Shown piece by piece: positions 12,832-45,977 of a DNA stretch of 64,000 nt. Source of the stretch: Bdellovibrio bacteriovorus HD100 (GTDB taxonomy: Bacteria > Bdellovibrionota > Bdellovibrionia > Bdellovibrionales > Bdellovibrionaceae); assembly GCF_000196175.1 (NCBI RefSeq), contig NC_005363.1:2418001-2482000 (forward strand), in the 5' to 3' direction. Below the pieces are notes generated by a model. It saw only the letters and a program-made list of their open reading frames with translations. It did no database searches and was not told the DNA's origin. Position 1 is the stretch's first letter, and each line of letters begins with the position of its first letter. A program made the translations under genes and the position numbers.

Positions 12832-13509
12832 TTAAGTTTTTTGTAGATTTTGGCTGCCCAGCCATTGGCGCAGCAGGTCTTTCTCTGACGACGACAGGCC
12901 GTCAAAGTGGATTCTGAGGACTTTGTCCTTCACATCGATGACCTTGGCTTTGCACTGAATATCGTTGATCTCTGACAGCACCAGCGTCAGCAATTGGTCT
13001 TTTTTGAAAGACTCCACGCCTTCCGGAACAGAAATGCGAGCTCCTGTATAGGACAGATCGACGGTTTCGCCACTTACTTTGCCATTCAAAACAACAGGTG
13101 TGACCACAACAAAGCGATCTCCTGTCGGCGCAAACCAATTCTGACGGCGATCCAGGTATGGATAACGGAAGAATGAAAACACTGTGCCCACGATAAAGAG
13201 CACCAACAGACAATCCAGCACCCTTGCTGTGCTGATCGCCGGGTCCACCACGCCAAAGCCCTTAAACAGGCTGACCAGCGTGCTGACCACAAAGATCCCG
13301 CATAGGATCATCCCCACAACCCAGGACAGCTTGTGGCGGATCATCAGCGTCAATCCGGCGCCAAAGACCGACACCCAACCCACCCAATTCAGAACCGCAA
13401 CTCCGGTTCTTTGCATCATGATAAGGTCAAGCACAGGCGTGAACATAAGCACAGCAGCAGCCATTTCCACTGCACGAGGACGCTCTAAAGCTGGTGATTT
13501 TGTTTCCAT
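12832..13509 (-). CDS. Membrane-anchored PilZ-domain protein
   Basis: 225 residues. The N-terminal half has about four hydrophobic segments (residues 14-35, 38-55, 60-83, 98-115). The C-terminal half is a PilZ-like beta domain with VDLSYTGARISV, matching the D/NxSxxG c-di-GMP-binding signature. No clear RxxxR partner motif precedes it, so nucleotide binding is uncertain. It may couple c-di-GMP to an envelope or motility function. The gene is divergent from the haem barrel gene at 13589 and lies 71 bp upstream of folE on the same strand. Confidence 0.75.
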   Translation of the reverse strand: METKSPALERPRAVEMAAAVLMFTPVLDLIMMQRTGVAVLNWVGWVSVFGAGLTLMIRHKLSWVVGMILCGIFVVSTLVSLFKGFGVVDPAISTARVLDCLLVLFIVGTVFSFFRYPYLDRRQNWFAPTGDRFVVVTPVVLNGKVSGETVDLSYTGARISVPEGVESFKKDQLLTLVLSEINDIQCKAKVIDVKDKVLRIHFDGLSSSEKDLLRQWLGSQNLQKT

Positions 13510-35259: not shown

Positions 35260-36603
35260 ATGGACAGCAACAACAACCAGAACAACATCGAAGTCCAGGA
35301 TCAAGACTCAGTTCTCAGTCTGTCAGAGAGCTGGTCTGCCCTTAGTCCGGCTGAGCGCCGCAAAAACTTCAAAGATCTGCCCCGCACCGAAGCTGAGGAA
35401 CTTTTCCTCAGCCTTAAGACCCACGATCAGGCCGAACTTATCGAAGAAGCGACTCATCTTGAAAAAAGATCCTGGATCCGCCTGCTGGCCCCCGATGACG
35501 TGGCCGATTTGATTCAGGAAATGGGTGCCGATCACCGTGAAGACATCCTGTCTTTGCTGGACCCGCAAACCAAACGCGAAGTCACCGCCCTGCTGGCTTA
35601 TGCTGAAGATGCCGCCGGGGGCTTGATGAGCTCCCGATTTGTGCGCCTGCGTCCTGACATGAGCGTGGATGAAGCCATCAGCTACATCCGCATTCAGGCC
35701 AAAACCCACGTTGAAACGATTTATTACGCTTACGTGCTGGACTCTGACCAGAAGCTTCTGGGTGTCGTTTCCTTCCGTGAGTTGTTCCAGTCCTCCCCTG
35801 AAAAGAAGATCGCCGAGATCATGCATACTGACGTTCTGAAAGTTCCCGTCGAAATGGACCAGGAGCAAATCGGTCGCATCTTCTCGCAACAGGATCTGAT
35901 GGCCGTCCCGGTTGTTGATGAAAACGGTATCATGAAAGGTATCGTCACGTTCGATGACGTGGCCACCGCCATCCAGGAAGAAGCCACCGAAGATATCCAT
36001 AAAATCGGGGGTGTTGAATCCCTGGATGCCCCGTACTTGAAGATCTCCATGCTGGAGATGCTAAAAAAACGCGGCGGCTGGCTGCTGATCCTTTTCCTGG
36101 GACAAATGTTCACCGCAACGGCCATGGCCTTTTTCGAGGACGAGCTTTCCAAAGCCATGGTTCTGTCGATGTTTATTCCGCTGATTATCAGCTCAGGTGG
36201 TAACTCCGGATCCCAGGCTTCGACATTGATCATCCGTGCGATCGCTCTGCGCGAGGTGCGTCTGCGAGACTGGTGGCGCGTCCTTGGCCGAGAAATCATG
36301 GCCGGCGCCTGCCTGGGCTTGGTCCTTGGCGCCATCGGTTTTATCCGAATCATGCTGTGGCCGAATCGTGAAACACTTTACACCGTTCACTACATGCATG
36401 TCGGCCTGACCGTCGCTGTCAGTGTGGTCGGCGTTGTGTTGTGGGGAACTATTTCCGGATCGATGCTTCCGTTCCTGCTGAAAAAAGCCGGCTTCGACCC
36501 TGCTTCGGCCTCGGCCCCGGCCGTCGCGACACTGGTGGACGTCACAGGCCTGGTGATCTACTTCACCGCTGCCTCTTTCTTCCTCACTGGCATCCTCTTC
36601 TAA
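35260..36603 (+). CDS. mgtE: Magnesium transporter MgtE
   Basis: 447 residues. The cytosolic MgtE-N helical domain (about 35-135) is followed by two CBS domains (about 145-255) and a five-helix membrane domain (about 285-447). The membrane domain includes ISSGGNSGSQASTLIIRA and the Asp-containing VATLVDVTGLVIYF that line the Mg2+ pore. It is a gated Mg2+ channel of the inner membrane, regulated by Mg2+ binding to the CBS domains. It is followed by a strong terminator. Confidence 0.95.
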   Translation: MDSNNNQNNIEVQDQDSVLSLSESWSALSPAERRKNFKDLPRTEAEELFLSLKTHDQAELIEEATHLEKRSWIRLLAPDDVADLIQEMGADHREDILSLLDPQTKREVTALLAYAEDAAGGLMSSRFVRLRPDMSVDEAISYIRIQAKTHVETIYYAYVLDSDQKLLGVVSFRELFQSSPEKKIAEIMHTDVLKVPVEMDQEQIGRIFSQQDLMAVPVVDENGIMKGIVTFDDVATAIQEEATEDIHKIGGVESLDAPYLKISMLEMLKKRGGWLLILFLGQMFTATAMAFFEDELSKAMVLSMFIPLIISSGGNSGSQASTLIIRAIALREVRLRDWWRVLGREIMAGACLGLVLGAIGFIRIMLWPNRETLYTVHYMHVGLTVAVSVVGVVLWGTISGSMLPFLLKKAGFDPASASAPAVATLVDVTGLVIYFTAASFFLTGILF

Positions 36604-36660: not shown

Positions 36661-38547
36661 CTAAGTCTTGATTAAACCACTGGTCCAATCGCGGATCATT
36701 GCAAGAGTTCCGGTTCGTGCATTTTCGAATGCAACCCCGTAGGCTTTGTTCTCTTCGCACCAGACCACTTGTCCCTGCACCTCGATGACTTCGTGGCCAT
36801 CCGGGCTTTGGATGCGCATGGTGACGATACCGCCTTTTTCCAGCGCCTGATCGGTATTAAAGGACAAACCACCCTGAGAAATCGTGTTCACAGAACCCAC
36901 CAGCTCACGGTCACCGACCTGAACGCGGATTTCTGAACTCATCTTGAAGCGATCGTGCTTACGGCGCGCTTTCGGATCACGGGCCCGCAAAACCTGCCAC
37001 AAGATCAAAGGCACCATCAACAATCCGAACACCACACCCGCAGCCCCACCACCGGACCCACCCTGGCCAGAACCCGGCCCCTGGTTGATCACGGATCTTA
37101 CAAGACCGCACCCGCCCCCGCCGGCTCCGGCGTCTGAGGCCACAGAGCGCTCGGACAGATAGGACGGCTTATAAGAAGGCTGGGAAGATTGAGCCGAGGC
37201 CATGCTTTGTGCCCCGGTCAACAGACTCAAAGCATCGATGCGCGCGCTGGAGGAAACTATGCCGTTCAGGCTGTACACCTGATCAGCCGACTGAATCACC
37301 AGTTGTTTCAACTGATAACCGGACAGCCCCGGCGCTTCACGCAAAGCCAAAGCTGCCATGCCTGCCACAAACGGCGCAGCCATACTGGTCCCGGACATCT
37401 TCAAAGTCTCGTTGCCCGGAACGGTACTTTCAATATATTCACCCGGACTTCCCAGATGAACTGTGTAGCTGCCATAGTTCGAGAACCCCGAGCGGTCATC
37501 CCACTTGGACGTCGAAGCGATGGCAATATTGCTTGGAACATCGTAATTGGCCGGATACATCGGAGCCGAGTCATTGTTGCTTCCATAGTTCCCGGCCGCT
37601 GACACCACCAGCACGTGATGGTCATAGGCATAGGTGATCGCATCATGCAGCGAGCGGCTGTAACCCGAACCACCCCACGAGTTGTTGATCACCTTCGCTC
37701 CGTTGTTCACGGCATAATAGATGGCCTTAATGGCATTGGCTGTAGAACCGGAGCCCCCGGCCCCCAGGAATTTCAAAGGCATGATCTGAATTTTGGATTC
37801 AGCCAAGGGACGTGCAAAGATATTCTGCCCCGCCCCCACAACGATCCCGGCCACGTGAGTTCCGTGGTCATCGTCGTCATAGAAATTTCCGGTGTTGGAG
37901 ATAAAGTTCCAACCGTTAATATCATCCACAAAACCATTCTGGTCGTCATCGACACCCGGAGTTCCGCTGGCCTCGATCTGGTTGATCCAAAGCGCACCGG
38001 TACCACCCGTGCCATTGGCATTGTAAGGCTTGAAAACGTCATGAGCTTTATCAAGCCCCGTATCCACGACAGCCACAATCACTTTGCCATGCTGGGCATC
38101 CAGCGCAGTCTGATACCCCCAGGAGTCCGCCACACGCGTGTCCGCCGTGGACTGGGAATAAACAGACGGATTGGAGGACACATAACCAGATGCCACAACC
38201 TGTTCATAGGACAGGCGCTCGACAGGCCCGTTGGGCTCCACTTCATTCTTTTTCAAAACAAAATTGGGTTCAATATACTCAATATCCGGGTCGTTTTTCA
38301 GGGCCTCAAAGGTGGCCTTTTCATCAACGTCGGACTTCATGGAAACCTGGAAAACTCCCAGCCCCGGAAAGGCGGCTTTGAGGTTGGCCTTCCCCTGCAA
38401 TTTGGTCTGAGCCAGGCCCGCACCTCCGGAAGAGGCTTTGAACTTGATCAGATATTCCCCAGGAACGGCTTCAGGAGCTGTCTGAGCCCCTGCATTCCAC
38501 CCTATCAGAACCAAAGATATAAATAGACCTCTTAGAATCGGCGTCAC
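36661..38547 (-). CDS. Subtilase with membrane helix and C-terminal PilZ domain
   Basis: 628 residues. There is a signal peptide (about 1-21), then an I9-like propeptide (about 28-100, GEYLIKFK to IEYIEPNFVL). The S8 catalytic domain has Asp162, His228 (DDHGTHVAG), oxyanion Asn320 and Ser388 (GTSMAAP). A Gly-rich segment containing Cys480 and a hydrophobic helix (about 503-520) with Arg/Lys after it recall GlyGly/MYXO-CTERM sorting tails. Residues about 525-620 form a PilZ domain with R529-x3-R533 and TISQGG; the usual Asp of DxSxxG is Thr555. An external protease with a cytoplasmic c-di-GMP-type domain is predicted. Confidence 0.85.
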   Translation of the reverse strand: MTPILRGLFISLVLIGWNAGAQTAPEAVPGEYLIKFKASSGGAGLAQTKLQGKANLKAAFPGLGVFQVSMKSDVDEKATFEALKNDPDIEYIEPNFVLKKNEVEPNGPVERLSYEQVVASGYVSSNPSVYSQSTADTRVADSWGYQTALDAQHGKVIVAVVDTGLDKAHDVFKPYNANGTGGTGALWINQIEASGTPGVDDDQNGFVDDINGWNFISNTGNFYDDDDHGTHVAGIVVGAGQNIFARPLAESKIQIMPLKFLGAGGSGSTANAIKAIYYAVNNGAKVINNSWGGSGYSRSLHDAITYAYDHHVLVVSAAGNYGSNNDSAPMYPANYDVPSNIAIASTSKWDDRSGFSNYGSYTVHLGSPGEYIESTVPGNETLKMSGTSMAAPFVAGMAALALREAPGLSGYQLKQLVIQSADQVYSLNGIVSSSARIDALSLLTGAQSMASAQSSQPSYKPSYLSERSVASDAGAGGGGCGLVRSVINQGPGSGQGGSGGGAAGVVFGLLMVPLILWQVLRARDPKARRKHDRFKMSSEIRVQVGDRELVGSVNTISQGGLSFNTDQALEKGGIVTMRIQSPDGHEVIEVQGQVVWCEENKAYGVAFENARTGTLAMIRDWTSGLIKT

Positions 38548-38622: not shown

Positions 38623-38637
38623 GTCTCAGTGTGAGAC
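38623..38637. promoter_or_regulatory. Dyad GTCTCA-GTG-TGAGAC
   Basis: Perfect dyad in the divergent gap between the protease-PilZ gene (start 38547) and the DUF502 gene (start 38718). It is the best-placed operator candidate of this family. Confidence 0.6.
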
Positions 38638-38717
38638 ACCCTAAGAGCTTGAAGGGATTTGACTTAGCTGATATTTATTTCATGCCGATAGGACAACCAG
38701 GAACAGGACATCTAGCT

Positions 38718-39329
38718 ATGAAACAACTTCAGAAGATCTTCTTGCAGGGCCTCGTTACATTTCTGCCCATCGCTCTGACTATATATATTATCTATGCCGG
38801 CGTAGCGATCGTGGACAGCTTCCTTGGGGATGCTCTTCGCCAGATTCTTCCCGTTTACATCCCGGGACTGGGCTTCCTGATTACACTTGTCCTGATTCTG
38901 CTTTTGGGCCTGCTGCTGAACAACCTTCTGGCTGGCGGCATCTTCCAGAAGCTGGAACAAAAGCTGACCAAAGTTCCTTTCATCAAAGCCATCTACAGCC
39001 CCCTGCGTGATCTGATGAATTTGTTTTCAAAGGGCGGCGGTCCGGGTGGTTTGCAGAAGGTTGTTCTGGTCGACATCAGTGAGGGCGAAAACCCGATCCG
39101 CGCGATGGGCCTAGTGACCCGTGAAAACTTCAAAGATGTTCCTGCCATTGAACAAAATGCCGGAGATCGCGTCGCCGTTTACATCCCCATGAGCTATGGT
39201 TTGGGTGGATTCACACTGATGATTCCAAGAAACCGCATCACCCCACTGGATATGCCAATCGAAAAAGCCATGAGTCTTGCCATCACCGGCTGGGTGAAGG
39301 CTGAAAAAAACGAAGGTGAGATCAAGTAA
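38718..39329 (+). CDS. DUF502-family membrane protein
   Basis: 203 residues from the ATG at 38718; upstream in-frame starts lack an SD. Two hydrophobic segments (about 8-30 and 48-72) are followed by a conserved soluble domain with VPFIKAIYSPLRDLMNLF and VYIPMSYGLGGFTLMIPRN. This matches the DUF502 family of integral membrane proteins found widely in bacteria and plants. The function is not established. Its stop overlaps the next start (TAATG). Confidence 0.85.
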   Translation: MKQLQKIFLQGLVTFLPIALTIYIIYAGVAIVDSFLGDALRQILPVYIPGLGFLITLVLILLLGLLLNNLLAGGIFQKLEQKLTKVPFIKAIYSPLRDLMNLFSKGGGPGGLQKVVLVDISEGENPIRAMGLVTRENFKDVPAIEQNAGDRVAVYIPMSYGLGGFTLMIPRNRITPLDMPIEKAMSLAITGWVKAEKNEGEIK

Positions 39330-40735
39330 TGTCGGATTCATCTGAAAACACCCTGAGCAAAGCCCGCAAAATCAATCAGGACACCAGTCGTTATGGCGTT
39401 TTTGCTGAAATCGGTGCCGGCCAGGAGGTCGCCCGTCACTTCTTCCAGGCCGGAAAAGCCTCACAGACCATCGCCAAAACCATCTCTGCCTATGACATGG
39501 TTGTCAGCGATGACATCTACGGGAAAGAGCAAAACGGTCGCTATGTGTGTGAACCCCGCCTGAATAAGATGCTGACTCACGAATACGATCTTTTGATCGA
39601 TCGCCTGAGCGGTCCGCGCGGAGCCACTTCGCGTTTCTTTGCTCTGGCCAATACAGTTGCGACAGCTTCCTCCGGCAGCAACAAACAATCCCATGGCTGG
39701 ATGGGCGTGCGTTTTCAATCAAATCCGGGTGGACCGGCAAATGATATCATTCTGCACGTACGTATGCTCGATCGCCACCGCCTGCAGCAGCAAGAGGCTT
39801 TGGGCATTTTAGGTGTAAACCTGTTGTATTGCGCATTCTATCACCTGGACAAACCAGAGGACTTTATTTCCCGTCTGGCGGAATGCCTTAAAGACGATCA
39901 GATCATCATTGATGTGATCAAATTCTCTGGCCCCGAAGTGAAGCACTTTGACGTGCGCTTGATGAATCTGGAGCTGGTTCGCCGTGGTCTGGCCGAAGCG
40001 ATCTTATTCTCGCCTAAGAACGAAATTCTGAATGTGTCGGACGCCATCTATGGCAAGTCGCTGTTAATTCAGCGAGGGACTTATCGTCCGGTGACAGTGA
40101 CTCACATGGATGTTCTGAAAAAAGGCCTGGAACAGATCAAGGACGATGTCCTGAAATCCGAGGGCAAGGCCCTGGATGTTCTGCCGATCATGGAACTGAC
40201 CATGCACAATCTGACCACCGACGGGCATGTCAATGAAAAGGACTTCCTGGAGCGCGTGGAAACTCTGACCAATCAGGGTGTGCATGTTTTGATTTCAAAC
40301 TTCTTCCTGTTCTATGGCTTGAAGCGCTTTATCCGCCGCTACAACCCCCACTTTATGGCGCTGGTTGTGGGTGCAAGCCACCTGAATAAACTTTTCACCG
40401 AAGAGCACTACAGCGATCTGCAAGGCGGCCTGCTGGAAGGTCTGGGCAAATTGCTGGAACAAAAAACAAAATTGTACATCTATCCCCACAAGACGCCGAA
40501 TCTGTGCCTGACGGCGAAGAGCTTCTTCCCCGCCCCGCACCTGCGCCATGTTTATGCCCATTTCGTTGAAAACAAGCAGATCGTGGATATTTCCGGCTGT
40601 GATGAAACCGGCGATTATCTGCATTCAATTGACGTGATGAAAATGATTGAATCCGGAGATGCGAAGTGGGAGCAACTGGTGCCCCCGGGCGTTCGCGATT
40701 TGATCAAGTCTAAAAAGCTGTTTGGTTTGAAGTAG
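39329..40735 (+). CDS. Conserved protein of unknown function
   Basis: 468 residues, no signal peptide, mixed alpha/beta. Highly conserved-looking blocks include SRYGVFAEIGAGQEVARHFF, SAYDMVVSDDIYG, GWMGVRFQSNPGG and LVVGASHLNKLF. I recall similar proteins in other proteobacterial genomes under unhelpful or mistaken names; no biochemical role is known to me. The start overlaps the DUF502 stop by one base, so the two are co-translated. It converges with the giant fibre gene with a 21-bp gap. Confidence 0.7.
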   Translation: MSDSSENTLSKARKINQDTSRYGVFAEIGAGQEVARHFFQAGKASQTIAKTISAYDMVVSDDIYGKEQNGRYVCEPRLNKMLTHEYDLLIDRLSGPRGATSRFFALANTVATASSGSNKQSHGWMGVRFQSNPGGPANDIILHVRMLDRHRLQQQEALGILGVNLLYCAFYHLDKPEDFISRLAECLKDDQIIIDVIKFSGPEVKHFDVRLMNLELVRRGLAEAILFSPKNEILNVSDAIYGKSLLIQRGTYRPVTVTHMDVLKKGLEQIKDDVLKSEGKALDVLPIMELTMHNLTTDGHVNEKDFLERVETLTNQGVHVLISNFFLFYGLKRFIRRYNPHFMALVVGASHLNKLFTEEHYSDLQGGLLEGLGKLLEQKTKLYIYPHKTPNLCLTAKSFFPAPHLRHVYAHFVENKQIVDISGCDETGDYLHSIDVMKMIESGDAKWEQLVPPGVRDLIKSKKLFGLK

Positions 40736-40756: not shown

Positions 40757-43700
40757 CTATTTAGCATTGAGAGCCTTCTCAATCTTTTCAAGACGTTTGG
40801 TCATTTCTTCATTTTTGCGCTCCAGCTCTCTGATCTTCAGGTCTTTGGCAGCATTGGCAGCCTTAACATCCAGAAGATCGCGATAAAGCTCCTGCACAGC
40901 TTTAATAATCGGAGCGATCAGCTCTGTGTATCTAACACTGTAGCTGTCGCTGTCTTCGTTGTGGGTCACAATGACATCACTTGGCTCCCCTTTAGCTTTG
41001 GCAATAGCCAGCTCTGCTTCCTGAGCAATGACTCCGTAATGCTCTGTAGCTCCTTGATTTTCATCTTTCCACGTCCATGAAACAGGACGTAGAGAGTTAA
41101 CAAAATCCAGTCCGAGATCAGAGTCTTTTACATTCTTTTTCAAACGAGCGTCGGAACTCACATCAGGGGCATTTGAGAGATAGATATTGTTCCATCTTAG
41201 CGTGCTGGACCCGATGTTCTTTGATGCCGTTATATCTGGAGTGATGTTACCAGCAACTTGCAGCTTCGAAGTTGGACCTGTAACGCCAATACCAACATTA
41301 CCCGCCGAGTCGACCCTTAAGCGCTCTGCGCCATTCGTAGTGACCGCAAGAGTGGCTGCATTTGGAAAAAAGAGTCCCGCAGCAGAGCCTGATCCAATGG
41401 CATGCTCAACAGCCGTACCATTGGGTAGAATAATTGAAGTAGAATAGTAAGCACTCCACGGAGTGAAGCCGACAGCAAGAGTGCCATCTGTAACCACCCC
41501 GACTCCTTCACCACCATAGTGATACAATCCTGTATCAGAGTTGGCAGAAAACGAGATTGAAGGAGCCGCTAGGCTTCCGTCGGCCACGCGTAAACCTCCT
41601 GCAACTTCAAGCTTTGCACTTGGGGTGATTGTCCCGATACCGACATTTCCTGTGTCAAATTTCCCGAACATCAGAGGTGTTTTGGCTGTCATGGAATTAT
41701 TGGCAATAATAAACGTATTCGATCTCTGGCCCCCATCAACGCCGGCCTTGTAACCAAGGAAGACATTCCCATTCCCCGCCGTTAAACTTCCCGTATTTGC
41801 ATTGTAACCGGCCTGGAAACCCAGCGACACCCCATAGCGAGACGCATGAGCTTGAGCACCAACCCCAACAGCTTCTGACGTAGAGTTAGAATTCCATCCG
41901 ATGGAAACACCACTCGCCGCTCCGTTGGCAAAATAACCCACTGCAGTCCCTTGGAAGTTGCCGTCCGCAGAATCCCCGACGGCGACTCCTGACGTCGGGG
42001 CATAGGAAGCATGACCAACGGCAACCCCATTGGTACCGCCATCAGCATACAACCCCACAGATGTGTTATCCGCAGCCAGAGTCAAGTTGGGAACTGTAGC
42101 ACCCCAGCCTGAAGAGATGTCCTTACAGTTTGCTCCAGCCTCATCACAGATCTCTGTCGCGCGAATGCCACCATTCACATCCAACTTAGACTGAGGCGTC
42201 GTCGTACCAATACCCACATTTCCATTATTCGCAATTCGCATGCGCTCTAGGTTAATTCCGGACTCTTTGGTCCAGAATAGCATATCATACTGGGCCGAAG
42301 CCGTATTCATAGTCCGCATTTTGATTCCACCACGATCATTTCCTCCCAGGCGGAACTCAATCTCGGCCGTATTGCCGGCCAGATCCGTGCTCTCATTGGA
42401 TATAGCCACTCTAGTGTTAGTAGCTGCTTTGCCAACATAAAGCGGATAGGACGCTGAATTGTCATAACCGATACCAACAGAGAGTCCTGCGTTCGTATTG
42501 TTCCAAAAAAGCTTGCTGGCCCCAGACATCGCACCAGCGTTGTTAAACTGAATTTGCATGTCGGCCCCCGCAGGTGCGGCAGATACCCCCGTCAAGCCAG
42601 ATCCGTCACCTTGGAAGGCCGTGGCTTTCACTGTACCGACAACATCCAATTTTGTTGTCGGCCCCGTCGTGCCAATACCAACGTTTCCGGAAGCACTTAT
42701 CGTAAGCTTGTCTGAAAATCCATTAGTTCCAAATCGCAGGCTTCCACCAATTTTACGATTACTGAGGACCACGTCATTCGTGGCATAATCAACCAAAAAC
42801 CCATCATTTACACCATCGCCGACAGTAGAATTGGTCAGTTGAATTCCACCACCACTGACGTGAAGCTTTCTTTGTGGACTTGTTAGTCCAATCCCCACGT
42901 TCCCCGTGTTGTAATAGATATCACTTCCCGCGGACGTCCATTTTGACCCCGTCGGGATTGGCGAGTTACAAACCAATGAGCTTGTCCCATCCGAAGTACA
43001 CATGCTGTTGGCGGTGATGCCTGTTAGACCAATCAAAGGAACCTTGCCCGAGATTGTGCCGGTGTCTTTCGTTCCGGCTGTACCAATCCCCAAAGCTGTT
43101 TGTGCCCCTGCTTGTGTCGTCGCGCCGGTTCCGCCATTCGCCAATGGCACGGTGTCAACGCTAAAGACTGTGCCAGCCAGTGACAATCCTGTCCCTGCGG
43201 TGTAAGTGGTATTAGTATCTGTATCGGCAGAAGGCTCCCATGTGGAAGTTCCGTTGTTCCATTTTAGCACCTGACCATTCGTAGGTGCCGTTGCAGCAAC
43301 AGAGCGATTCTGCAGTTTTTCAACTTTCATCACTCCAACAGTTCCTGTCACGTCGCCAGCAAAGGTTTGATTCCCCTGAAGGGCCGTACCGGCTGTTGTA
43401 CCATAAGTCACCGTCGGTACCGCTGCCCAGGAAACATCCGTTCCATTTGTAGTTAAGTACTTACCTGCATTGGTGGATTGTGATGGCAACACGGCATTCG
43501 CAGCACCCGCTTGGGTCGTCGCCCCCGTACCACCATTAGCAATCGACAAGGCAGTGCCCGACCAATTGCTGTTGTTCACAGTTCCAGAGGTCGCAAGTGA
43601 ACCCAACGTCATCCAACCCAAATTACCAGAACCATCCACGGACATCACCTGATTGGCGGTGCCTTGAGTGGCTGGCAAACGCAGAACATAGCTTGTTCCG

Positions 43701-45718
43701 ATCGCTGCATTCGGTCCCGTCAAAGTGGCAGTGTTGGCCGAAGTCCCTTTGTATTCAGAGCCCTTGGTATTATCGAATATCAAATTTCCCGTAACCGAGT
43801 CACCGGCTTTGTTCACCGGAGTATAACCCAAAGCTGTCGTAATATCAGCAGCAGCCACTGCCGCTCCGCTGGTCACGCGGCCTTGAGCATCCGTCGTGAC
43901 TTTCGTGTAAGTCCCTGCCGTGCCGGTCGCCTTCAGCGTCGGATTCGGATAAGTACCTGTCAGATCTCCACCCGCAGATCCAGATGGAGCACCGTTCACG
44001 CAAGAAAAGCTTGTTCCATTGAACGTGACATACTGATTTGCACCGCAGGTTGGGATGGTTTTATACTCCAGAGCGCTTCCCGCCCCATTCATTCCCAGCA
44101 ATTGATTAGCCGTGCCTGCCGCGCTCAAGCCTGTACCACCTTTGGTCACAGGCAGAGTTCCCGTGACACCTGTACCTGCAAGACTGAGTTGAATGTCCTG
44201 ACACTCAAACTTGTCTGTGATCGACGACCAACCCATTGTTTGGCTGGCAGTACAACTTGCAACATTGAATGCGGAGCCGGTTCCCAAGCTGTCTTTCAGT
44301 TCTGACAGCTTCACATAGTGGGGAACCCAACCAGTTCCATCCACATACTTCAGGAACTTTTGATCATCTGTCGCCAAAGCTTTCGCCACAGGGATCTCGT
44401 TGATTTTTACAACTTTCGGATTTGGCAAAGTTCCGCTTAGATCCTGCCCCAAACTGGTAGACTCCTGAAAAGCCCCCGTCGGAAGGGCCACCCATTGCAA
44501 TTTACCAGCACCATCAGTTTGTAAAACCATGTTGGCATTCGCCGCATTTGTCATCGCAGGCCATTCAAGACTGTATCCAGCCCCGCCCGCAGGGTAAGTG
44601 AAGGTTAAATAATTTGATCCATTCCAGATTTTTAGGTTTTGCCCGGCAAGATTCGTAGCCGAAACATTCGTGCTCTGCACGTCCACAGTCAGGGTGCCTG
44701 AGGTGATTTTATTCGCAGGTAGCGCCGGGATATCACTGTCAGCCAAGGTCGTCCCCGTCGTCACGCGACCATATTTGTCAGCCGTAACTTTGGTATAAGT
44801 TCCTTGCGTATTAAGTTCTTCAAGGCTCAGAGTGGCTGCTCCTGCGGTGGCACCTCCGGCCAGACCGGCCCCCGCCACGACGGAGGTGATAGTTCCGCCA
44901 CCGGCAACAACGGGCTGCCACGAGGCGTTCGTTCCATCCGTTTGCAAATAATAGTTGGTCTTTCCGGTTTGAATGGGAAGCAGATTCTGCAAGGCCGCCA
45001 TTGAGGTTGTGGCTCCGGTGCCCCCTTGGGACACGGGGACTGTGTAAGCACTGTCCAGACTCTGCGCCACGACCGCCGTCAAAGCGCTGGTGGCAGTGAC
45101 TGTTCCATCCGGATTTACGTTGGATAATAGATTTTCAAGTTTCGTCGTTTGCGCCAGCACCTTTTCAAGATTGGTCTGTGTAACCCCTTTCCCCGGGTCC
45201 ACCTGCAGGAAATCACTTTCCTCCTTACCATTCAAGGTTTCGGAATTCACGGCATAAGCCATCGCACGCATATTAAAGTCAGCAAGCACGGGGATGCCAT
45301 TAACAGCCAAATCAATTCGAAATTTTCGAACCCCACTGCTTGCGCCAGGATTGAAACTTCCACTGACACGCCCGCCCCCTGCCTCTATGCATTTTAATCC
45401 GCTTCGAACCTTGGAATTATCCATAACCTCGGTCATCGTGAAACCAGGATCATCTCCATCCGTGACTCCCTGACCGATGACCAGATTGATGTAACCATTG
45501 ACTATGTTAACGGAACTGAATTCTTCTTCTCGTAAAATACAATTGTTCGCGGACAGGACCAATCCACGCACGCTGACACCTGCAGCAGAAGGATAATCCC
45601 CGCTGGGAAGTCTGATCACCCCCTGGAAGCTGATGCCTTTGTGGGTTCCCCCCGCAGCCAACGTGGATTGGCCTGCAAAACAGACTGCAATGGCACACCA
45701 ATGAATGAATTTATTCAT
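40757..45718 (-). CDS. Giant fibre-like surface protein with C-terminal S74 chaperone
   Basis: 1653 residues from the ATG at 45718 (signal peptide MNKFIHWCAIAVCFAGQSTLAA). The N-terminal domain begins GISFQGVIRLPSG, shared in outline with the 59730 protein. A very long region of Gly/Thr/Ser-rich repeats follows, including [27 protein letters not shown] and repeated [10 protein letters not shown] units, as in phage tail fibres. The C-terminus has SSDARLKKNV, the Ser/Lys self-cleavage site of the S74 intramolecular chaperone, then a coiled coil (about the last 45 residues). It probably forms a trimeric fibre or adhesin. A lipoprotein gene lies directly upstream. Confidence 0.85.
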   Translation of the reverse strand: MNKFIHWCAIAVCFAGQSTLAAGGTHKGISFQGVIRLPSGDYPSAAGVSVRGLVLSANNCILREEEFSSVNIVNGYINLVIGQGVTDGDDPGFTMTEVMDNSKVRSGLKCIEAGGGRVSGSFNPGASSGVRKFRIDLAVNGIPVLADFNMRAMAYAVNSETLNGKEESDFLQVDPGKGVTQTNLEKVLAQTTKLENLLSNVNPDGTVTATSALTAVVAQSLDSAYTVPVSQGGTGATTSMAALQNLLPIQTGKTNYYLQTDGTNASWQPVVAGGGTITSVVAGAGLAGGATAGAATLSLEELNTQGTYTKVTADKYGRVTTGTTLADSDIPALPANKITSGTLTVDVQSTNVSATNLAGQNLKIWNGSNYLTFTYPAGGAGYSLEWPAMTNAANANMVLQTDGAGKLQWVALPTGAFQESTSLGQDLSGTLPNPKVVKINEIPVAKALATDDQKFLKYVDGTGWVPHYVKLSELKDSLGTGSAFNVASCTASQTMGWSSITDKFECQDIQLSLAGTGVTGTLPVTKGGTGLSAAGTANQLLGMNGAGSALEYKTIPTCGANQYVTFNGTSFSCVNGAPSGSAGGDLTGTYPNPTLKATGTAGTYTKVTTDAQGRVTSGAAVAAADITTALGYTPVNKAGDSVTGNLIFDNTKGSEYKGTSANTATLTGPNAAIGTSYVLRLPATQGTANQVMSVDGSGNLGWMTLGSLATSGTVNNSNWSGTALSIANGGTGATTQAGAANAVLPSQSTNAGKYLTTNGTDVSWAAVPTVTYGTTAGTALQGNQTFAGDVTGTVGVMKVEKLQNRSVAATAPTNGQVLKWNNGTSTWEPSADTDTNTTYTAGTGLSLAGTVFSVDTVPLANGGTGATTQAGAQTALGIGTAGTKDTGTISGKVPLIGLTGITANSMCTSDGTSSLVCNSPIPTGSKWTSAGSDIYYNTGNVGIGLTSPQRKLHVSGGGIQLTNSTVGDGVNDGFLVDYATNDVVLSNRKIGGSLRFGTNGFSDKLTISASGNVGIGTTGPTTKLDVVGTVKATAFQGDGSGLTGVSAAPAGADMQIQFNNAGAMSGASKLFWNNTNAGLSVGIGYDNSASYPLYVGKAATNTRVAISNESTDLAGNTAEIEFRLGGNDRGGIKMRTMNTASAQYDMLFWTKESGINLERMRIANNGNVGIGTTTPQSKLDVNGGIRATEICDEAGANCKDISSGWGATVPNLTLAADNTSVGLYADGGTNGVAVGHASYAPTSGVAVGDSADGNFQGTAVGYFANGAASGVSIGWNSNSTSEAVGVGAQAHASRYGVSLGFQAGYNANTGSLTAGNGNVFLGYKAGVDGGQRSNTFIIANNSMTAKTPLMFGKFDTGNVGIGTITPSAKLEVAGGLRVADGSLAAPSISFSANSDTGLYHYGGEGVGVVTDGTLAVGFTPWSAYYSTSIILPNGTAVEHAIGSGSAAGLFFPNAATLAVTTNGAERLRVDSAGNVGIGVTGPTSKLQVAGNITPDITASKNIGSSTLRWNNIYLSNAPDVSSDARLKKNVKDSDLGLDFVNSLRPVSWTWKDENQGATEHYGVIAQEAELAIAKAKGEPSDVIVTHNEDSDSYSVRYTELIAPIIKAVQELYRDLLDVKAANAAKDLKIRELERKNEEMTKRLEKIEKALNAK

Positions 45719-45977
45719 AGAACGCCCCTTCAATAACAACATTATTTGTCAGCACCTTTTGCTCGGAAATTTCGCCAAAGGCTCCGCGAACAACAACGCC
45801 ACTCGCGGTCGTCACCACTTCGGACGCCACAAAATCCGGCTCGACTCTTTGAGCATCCACAACTGAGTTTTTATTCAAGTCGATGATCGAAGCCTCGATT
45901 CCGCAGCCAACAAGAAAAGCTGCGGCGATCATCGCGGTAATACATCTAAAGAAATCGGCCCTGCTGCAAACGTCCAT
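45711..45977 (-). CDS. Small lipoprotein upstream of the fibre gene
   Basis: 88 residues from the ATG at 45977, with GAGGTGG just upstream; a GTG four codons earlier is the alternative. The signal ends AAAFLVGCG (canonical lipobox). The mature part is short and beta-rich (VASEVVTTASGVVVRGAFGE). It overlaps the start of the 1653-residue fibre gene by 8 nt, so it is translationally coupled and may anchor or assemble the fibre. The function is inferred from position only. Confidence 0.65.
   Translation of the reverse strand: MDVCSRADFFRCITAMIAAAFLVGCGIEASIIDLNKNSVVDAQRVEPDFVASEVVTTASGVVVRGAFGEISEQKVLTNNVVIEGAFYE

Follow-up and report, generated by a model that had tools for sequence, protein, structure and literature searches.

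The analysed window is a 64,000-nucleotide stretch of Bdellovibrio bacteriovorus HD100 (contig NC_005363.1, positions 2,418,001 to 2,482,000), and coordinates are numbered within it unless stated otherwise. On its minus strand lies one gene whose 628-residue product joins an S8 family (subtilase) protease domain to a PilZ domain by way of a single hydrophobic segment. An earlier note, made from the letters of the window, had read a signal peptide, a propeptide, a complete S8 triad, a membrane helix, and a PilZ domain on this one chain, and Pfam searches, alignment, and hydrophobicity bear out every element. The features of the gene, its neighbours, and a second PilZ gene are as follows.

36661-38547, minus strand: S8-TM-PilZ fusion gene (bd2545 by gene order), GTG start, 628 aa, open throughout (ORF, Pfam, orthologues)
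38485-38547, minus strand: signal peptide, residues 1-21, ending AGA before Q (read by eye; AF2 helix 3-19)
38263-38481, minus strand: Fervidolysin_NPro-like inhibitory propeptide, residues 23-95 (Pfam 1.1e-6, over cutoff)
37279-38085, minus strand: Peptidase_S8 catalytic domain, residues 155-423, with Asp162, His228, and Ser388 (Pfam 1.5e-48, over cutoff)
37039-37158, minus strand: disordered Gly-rich linker, residues 464-503
37105-37113, minus strand: Gly479-Cys480-Gly481 motif (88/88, 88/88, and 87/88 orthologues)
36988-37044, minus strand: single membrane helix, residues 502-520, with invariant Pro513 (88/88; hydrophobicity, alignment)
36685-36966, minus strand: PilZ domain, residues 528-621 (Pfam 2.8e-18, over cutoff; AF2 mean pLDDT 91; Foldseek)
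36949-36963, minus strand: PilZ RxxxR motif, Arg529-Arg533 (both Arg 88/88)
36868-36885, minus strand: PilZ [D/N]xSxxG position, here Thr555-Ile-Ser-Gln-Gly-Gly560 (alignment)
35260-36603, plus strand: MgtE-type transporter, convergent downstream, a frequent neighbour in the family (Pfam, neighbourhood comparison)
38631-39329, plus strand: DUF502 membrane protein, divergent upstream, a conserved neighbour within the family (Pfam, neighbourhood comparison)
39329-40735, plus strand: 468-aa protein beside DUF502, also divergent upstream, conserved across much of the family (long matches, 49-88% identity)
12832-13509, minus strand: second PilZ protein of the window, Bd2524 by gene order

The predicted signal peptide, as read by eye, has an arginine at position 6, a hydrophobic core at residues 8-17, and the AGA-Q junction. 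The best PDB relative of the S8 domain is deseasin MCP-01 (3vv3), and subtilisins were also matched by Foldseek. None of the 88 orthologues departs from Asp162, His228, Ser388, or the oxyanion Asn320, and by fold, triad, and oxyanion asparagine the domain is an S8 member and a predicted protease. Besides the weaker core of the signal peptide, residues 502-520 (mean Kyte-Doolittle 2.2) form the only strongly hydrophobic segment of the chain, and every one of the 88 orthologues has a helix between Cys480 and Arg529. Because the stretch after this helix is basic (mean net charge +4.8, vs +0.2 before it, over the 88 proteins), the positive-inside rule predicts that the protease lies outside and PilZ inside. 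An AF2 model of the whole protein, built from a 27-row alignment of class members, is confident for the protease and PilZ domains and falls below pLDDT 50 over residues 470-503, the part of the linker that bears the Gly-Cys-Gly motif. The PilZ fragment had been placed at residues 525-628 in the earlier note; the domain stands, with its start moved to about residue 528.

The pairing of these two domains is already on record. A 2008 survey of serine proteases lists one ‘Subt-PilZ’ protein in B. bacteriovorus, NP_969350.1, in a single table row labelled ‘Signalling’ (PMC2605481); its domain pairing is identical to that of the fusion, and the passages found on it do not treat topology, orthologues, motifs, or a Gly-Cys-Gly site. 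NP_969350.1 is almost certainly the protein described here, and no PilZ match in the genome other than the fusion sits in a frame longer than about 310 aa. No experiment on the fusion protein and no study of how it works were found in the literature. The present analysis adds its conservation throughout the class, its predicted topology, the pattern at its ligand site, the invariant Gly-Cys-Gly, and the case against a known sorting system.

Two pilZ genes, named Bd2524 and Bd2545, are significantly down-regulated when attack-phase cells turn to predation or to host-independent growth (PMC2797640). Exactly two PilZ genes occur in the window, separated by 23.8 kb that contain about 20 plausible genes. 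Since this spacing and gene count fit the two names, the fusion gene would be Bd2545 and the gene at 12832-13509 Bd2524, an assignment by gene order and not by a database record. The fusion protein probably works in the free-swimming attack phase.

The S8-TM-PilZ arrangement is real and widely conserved. The search for this architecture that the earlier note had proposed was carried out and returned full-length orthologues across the class Bdellovibrionia. In the family, 61 of 66 genomes had an orthologue, and nearly all of these align over the whole span between the propeptide and the final residues of PilZ; the five genomes that lack one are draft assemblies. An alignment of the linker-helix-PilZ tail (A1) found the fusion in 49/51 sampled genomes of the family, in 39/46 other genomes of the order, and in two genomes of another family of the class. 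Among about 190 other genomes of the phylum the same alignment found no fusion; its sole matches beyond the class were two PilZ-only proteins (282 and 369 aa), and the idea that the fusion is widespread in the phylum was rejected. Outside the phylum, a non-exhaustive comparison of one peptide pattern with genome contigs returned records from Bdellovibrionales and Bdellovibrionota and one unrelated PilZ match. A frameshift or assembly error joining two genes, which the earlier note had named as a possible refutation, is next to impossible: nothing was found in its favour, and it is excluded by frames that stay open over their full length in dozens of genomes assembled independently.

The seven other genomes of the order in which the fusion is missing are all small (1.2-2.1 Mb). 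The PilZ repertoire of six of these was counted: two (G078 and G160) keep a PilZ-less protease and four have no orthologue, and the six encode 0-5 PilZ proteins vs 10-18 in most relatives. One further genome (G223) keeps the fusion despite having five PilZ proteins. This association between loss of PilZ from the protease and a small PilZ repertoire lends weak support to a functional tie, because genome reduction could explain both. Homologues without PilZ, the second possible refutation, do exist, but in a tree of the S8 domain the four PilZ-less copies sit among the fusion proteins, apart from the proteins from outside the order, and at least one of them (L077) is nested within the fusion clade with good branch support and appears to have lost PilZ secondarily. 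The simplest history, on a branching order that is partly resolved, is that PilZ was added a single time, early in the class, to an S8 protease with the Gly-Cys-Gly motif and the helix, and was lost again in some lineages. The survival of PilZ-less copies in some genomes implies that the protease and its anchor can work without PilZ. Mean pairwise identity is 54% for the S8 domain, 44% for PilZ, and 34% for the linker; the S8 and PilZ identities are only moderately correlated (Spearman 0.37), so strict co-evolution of the two domains is not claimed.

Within this variable linker the Gly-Cys-Gly motif is fixed. The tail of the protein had been described as rich in glycine and cysteine; it is glycine-rich, and its one cysteine, Cys480, is the only cysteine of the predicted exported part. 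The same holds for 55/88 orthologues, in which an intramolecular disulfide is thereby ruled out, leaving lipidation, an intermolecular disulfide, or a processing site as candidate roles. Three of the PilZ-less copies (L077, L078, and L112) end with G-C-G, the helix, and basic residues, and the fourth (L111) keeps C-G only. PilZ is likewise absent from three S8 proteins of a family beyond the order (L177-L179), which end with G-C-G and a hydrophobic tail, so an ending of this kind may be older than the fusion. That the motif is invariant and is kept in most PilZ-less copies shows that the linker holds a functional site, where some form of processing, lipidation, or crosslinking may take place.

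The layout of the linker and helix resembles that of known sorting signals. MYXO-CTERM (handled by myxosortase) and GlyGly-CTERM (handled by rhombosortase) also place a short Gly/Cys motif, one helix, and basic cytoplasmic residues on a secreted protein. On such a reading the linker, helix, and basic residues would form a Cys-type sorting signal, the chain would be lipidated or cut, or both, near Cys480, the protease would pass to the outer membrane or surface, and PilZ would be a by-product or would have a role of its own after cleavage. The tripartite layout of Cys motif, helix, and basic end resembles MYXO-CTERM (PMC11980579), the motif persists where the chain stops just past the helix and in the PilZ-less proteins outside the order, and in 55/88 orthologues the exported part offers Cys480 no intramolecular partner. 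Against this, the tag of the fusion is internal, with a folded domain behind it, and if the tag served only to be cut off, one would hardly expect PilZ to stay intact, with RxxxR invariant, throughout a class.

The machinery is also missing at the level of the models searched. No CTERM model matches the fusion tail; TIGR03901 (MYXO-CTERM) has no match at the locus, its best score in the genome being 14.7 bits elsewhere against a cutoff of 20, and no match to the CPBP protease family (PF02517, myxosortase) was found in the genome. Three rhomboids are encoded, all below the rhombosortase cutoff (TIGR03902, best 48.9 bits vs 84), and of 31 further GCGx[V/I/M]-type sites across the genome (exact motif only) none is followed by a membrane helix and a basic end. 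The suggestion that a rhombosortase-like enzyme cleaves the tail is accordingly unsupported. Two candidates were rejected on these counts, namely that the fusion is a client of rhombosortase or myxosortase and that the genome uses a general tag with many targets. At the most the tail would act as a relative of these tags with a single target of its own; as tested it belongs to neither family, and the sorting reading as a whole is unlikely. The rhomboid that scores 48.9 bits (L115, genome positions 2331034-2331447) is a candidate intramembrane protease.

At the other end of the chain, the PilZ domain scores highest among the 18 matches to PilZ in the genome. Its isolated model finds its best Foldseek match in the PilZ domain of Alg44 with c-di-GMP (4rt0/4rt1, TM about 0.75), followed by 4xrn and by MotI/DgrA, MapZ, BcsA, and YcgR structures, and the predicted beta-barrel places the domain in the PilZ family. 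The RxxxR motif of c-di-GMP-binding PilZ domains is present. The companion [D/N]xSxxG motif departs from consensus at Thr555, as the earlier note had pointed out, and keeps its serine and second glycine. Across the 88 orthologues position 555 is T in 48, S in 32, D in 3, C in 3, N in 1, and V in 1, that is, Thr or Ser in 80 and D/N in four; Ser557 is present in 85, and Gly559 and Gly560 in all. Five other PilZ loci of the genome (L002, L003, L005, L007, and L015), read by eye, likewise have Ser or Glu in place of the Asp/Asn of DxSxxG, which argues for a habit of the lineage and not for decay of one protein. The canonical DxSxxG motif seems relaxed genome-wide, and Thr/Ser at 555 is lineage-typical and compatible with binding, although affinity for c-di-GMP may be weak or specificity altered. 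As the RxxxR arm lies outside the PilZ barrel, its invariance favours ligand binding over a role in folding, and together with the likeness to c-di-GMP-bound Alg44 it makes c-di-GMP binding by this predicted fold likely.

The same residues bear on whether PilZ could instead serve for docking, positioning the protease (e.g., at a pole) through a protein partner with no nucleotide involved. The prevalence of Thr/Ser at 555 would suit such a role, as would the type IV pilus assembly PilZ proteins among the sequence matches, one of which (3dsg) has a title that describes trivial c-di-GMP binding. The invariant RxxxR and the near-invariant Ser557, Gly559, and Gly560, the first rank of a c-di-GMP-bound PilZ in the fold comparison, and the canonical Asp at 555 in three orthologues all weigh against it, and docking without nucleotide is a possible but doubtful account.

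The architecture, the topology, and the class-wide conservation support the view that an exported protease and a cytoplasmic PilZ domain are truly coupled. The reading favoured here, at a probability of about 0.45, is a bitopic inner-membrane protease for which cyclic-dinucleotide binding by PilZ sets how the protease is held, where it is placed, or whether it is shed. The S8 enzyme would be exported and matured by removal of its propeptide, and the flexible Gly-rich tether, with its Gly-Cys-Gly site, would keep it on the outer face of the inner membrane. One helix would span the membrane, with PilZ directly beneath, where it would bind c-di-GMP or a related cyclic dinucleotide through the membrane-proximal RxxxR arm. 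Binding would then set how and where the protease is held, through clustering or polar positioning, or its shedding at the Gly-Cys-Gly region. The analysis shows the domain content, the conservation, and the distribution over lineages; topology and the PilZ fold are predictions, and ligand binding, modification of Cys480, and the control step itself are inferred.

Direct action on the active site is less likely, because some 35 disordered residues lie between the protease and the helix. Inside-out allostery of that kind would have the ligand rearrange a PilZ dimer and the helix relay an on or off state to the protease, as LapD does to a separate protease. It can appeal to the single chain across the membrane, to the invariant Pro513 in the helix, to the LapD precedent, and to an intermolecular Cys480 disulfide that could stiffen a dimer. 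Residues 470-503, however, are predicted to be disordered and vary in sequence and length, and no coiled coil or HAMP-like relay was seen, so that such a relay is improbable. A more elaborate proposal, likewise a long shot, is that a processing or lipidation site at Gly-Cys-Gly outside and PilZ inside together make a second-messenger-gated switch by which the tethered protease is kept or shed, with Thr/Ser at 555 perhaps tuning the response, possibly towards 3',3'-cGAMP. The species makes this nucleotide (PMC9140294).

If the favoured reading of a PilZ-controlled tethered protease holds, it would give a compact way to choose when an exposed protease is deployed, at the exit of Bdellovibrio from attack phase, and would supply a possible output in a species that has 18 PilZ proteins but few targets known for them. 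Alg44, a protein of alginate synthesis, has a cytoplasmic PilZ domain, one membrane helix, and a periplasmic domain; its PilZ comes first, its output domain is of the membrane-fusion type, and it has the canonical Asp. The fusion shares with it the closest solved PilZ fold and the PilZ-helix-periplasmic layout, and differs in having PilZ last, a protease as output, and Thr for Asp. LapD uses a degenerate GGDEF-EAL module with a HAMP relay. LapD-LapG is the proven case of cytoplasmic c-di-GMP control over a periplasmic protease (PMC3032545), and the likeness to the fusion lies in a cytoplasmic receptor connected through the inner membrane with a protease output in the periplasm, with the c-di-GMP role inferred for the fusion. 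The LapD-LapG system needs two proteins, one of them a separate cysteine protease, whereas here PilZ and an S8 serine protease would make a more compact, single-chain version. The fusion has been kept across a class that includes a model predator, and the analysis points to one residue (Cys480) and one arm (R529/R533) in an organism tractable in the laboratory.

None of the neighbours of the fusion suggested a gene partner that could account for the mechanism. The DUF502, 468-aa, and MgtE neighbours are unmatched at most loci from other families of the order, and the 468-aa protein has no significant Pfam or NCBIfam match. Close to the fusion, a 1661-aa protein (40757-45742, minus strand) matches the NCBIfam model Bdello_MAT_N (mosaic adhesive trimer chimeric fibre, 104.5 bits) and ends in a C-terminal endosialidase-chaperone domain (Peptidase_S74), as in a fibre of the prey-recognition type.
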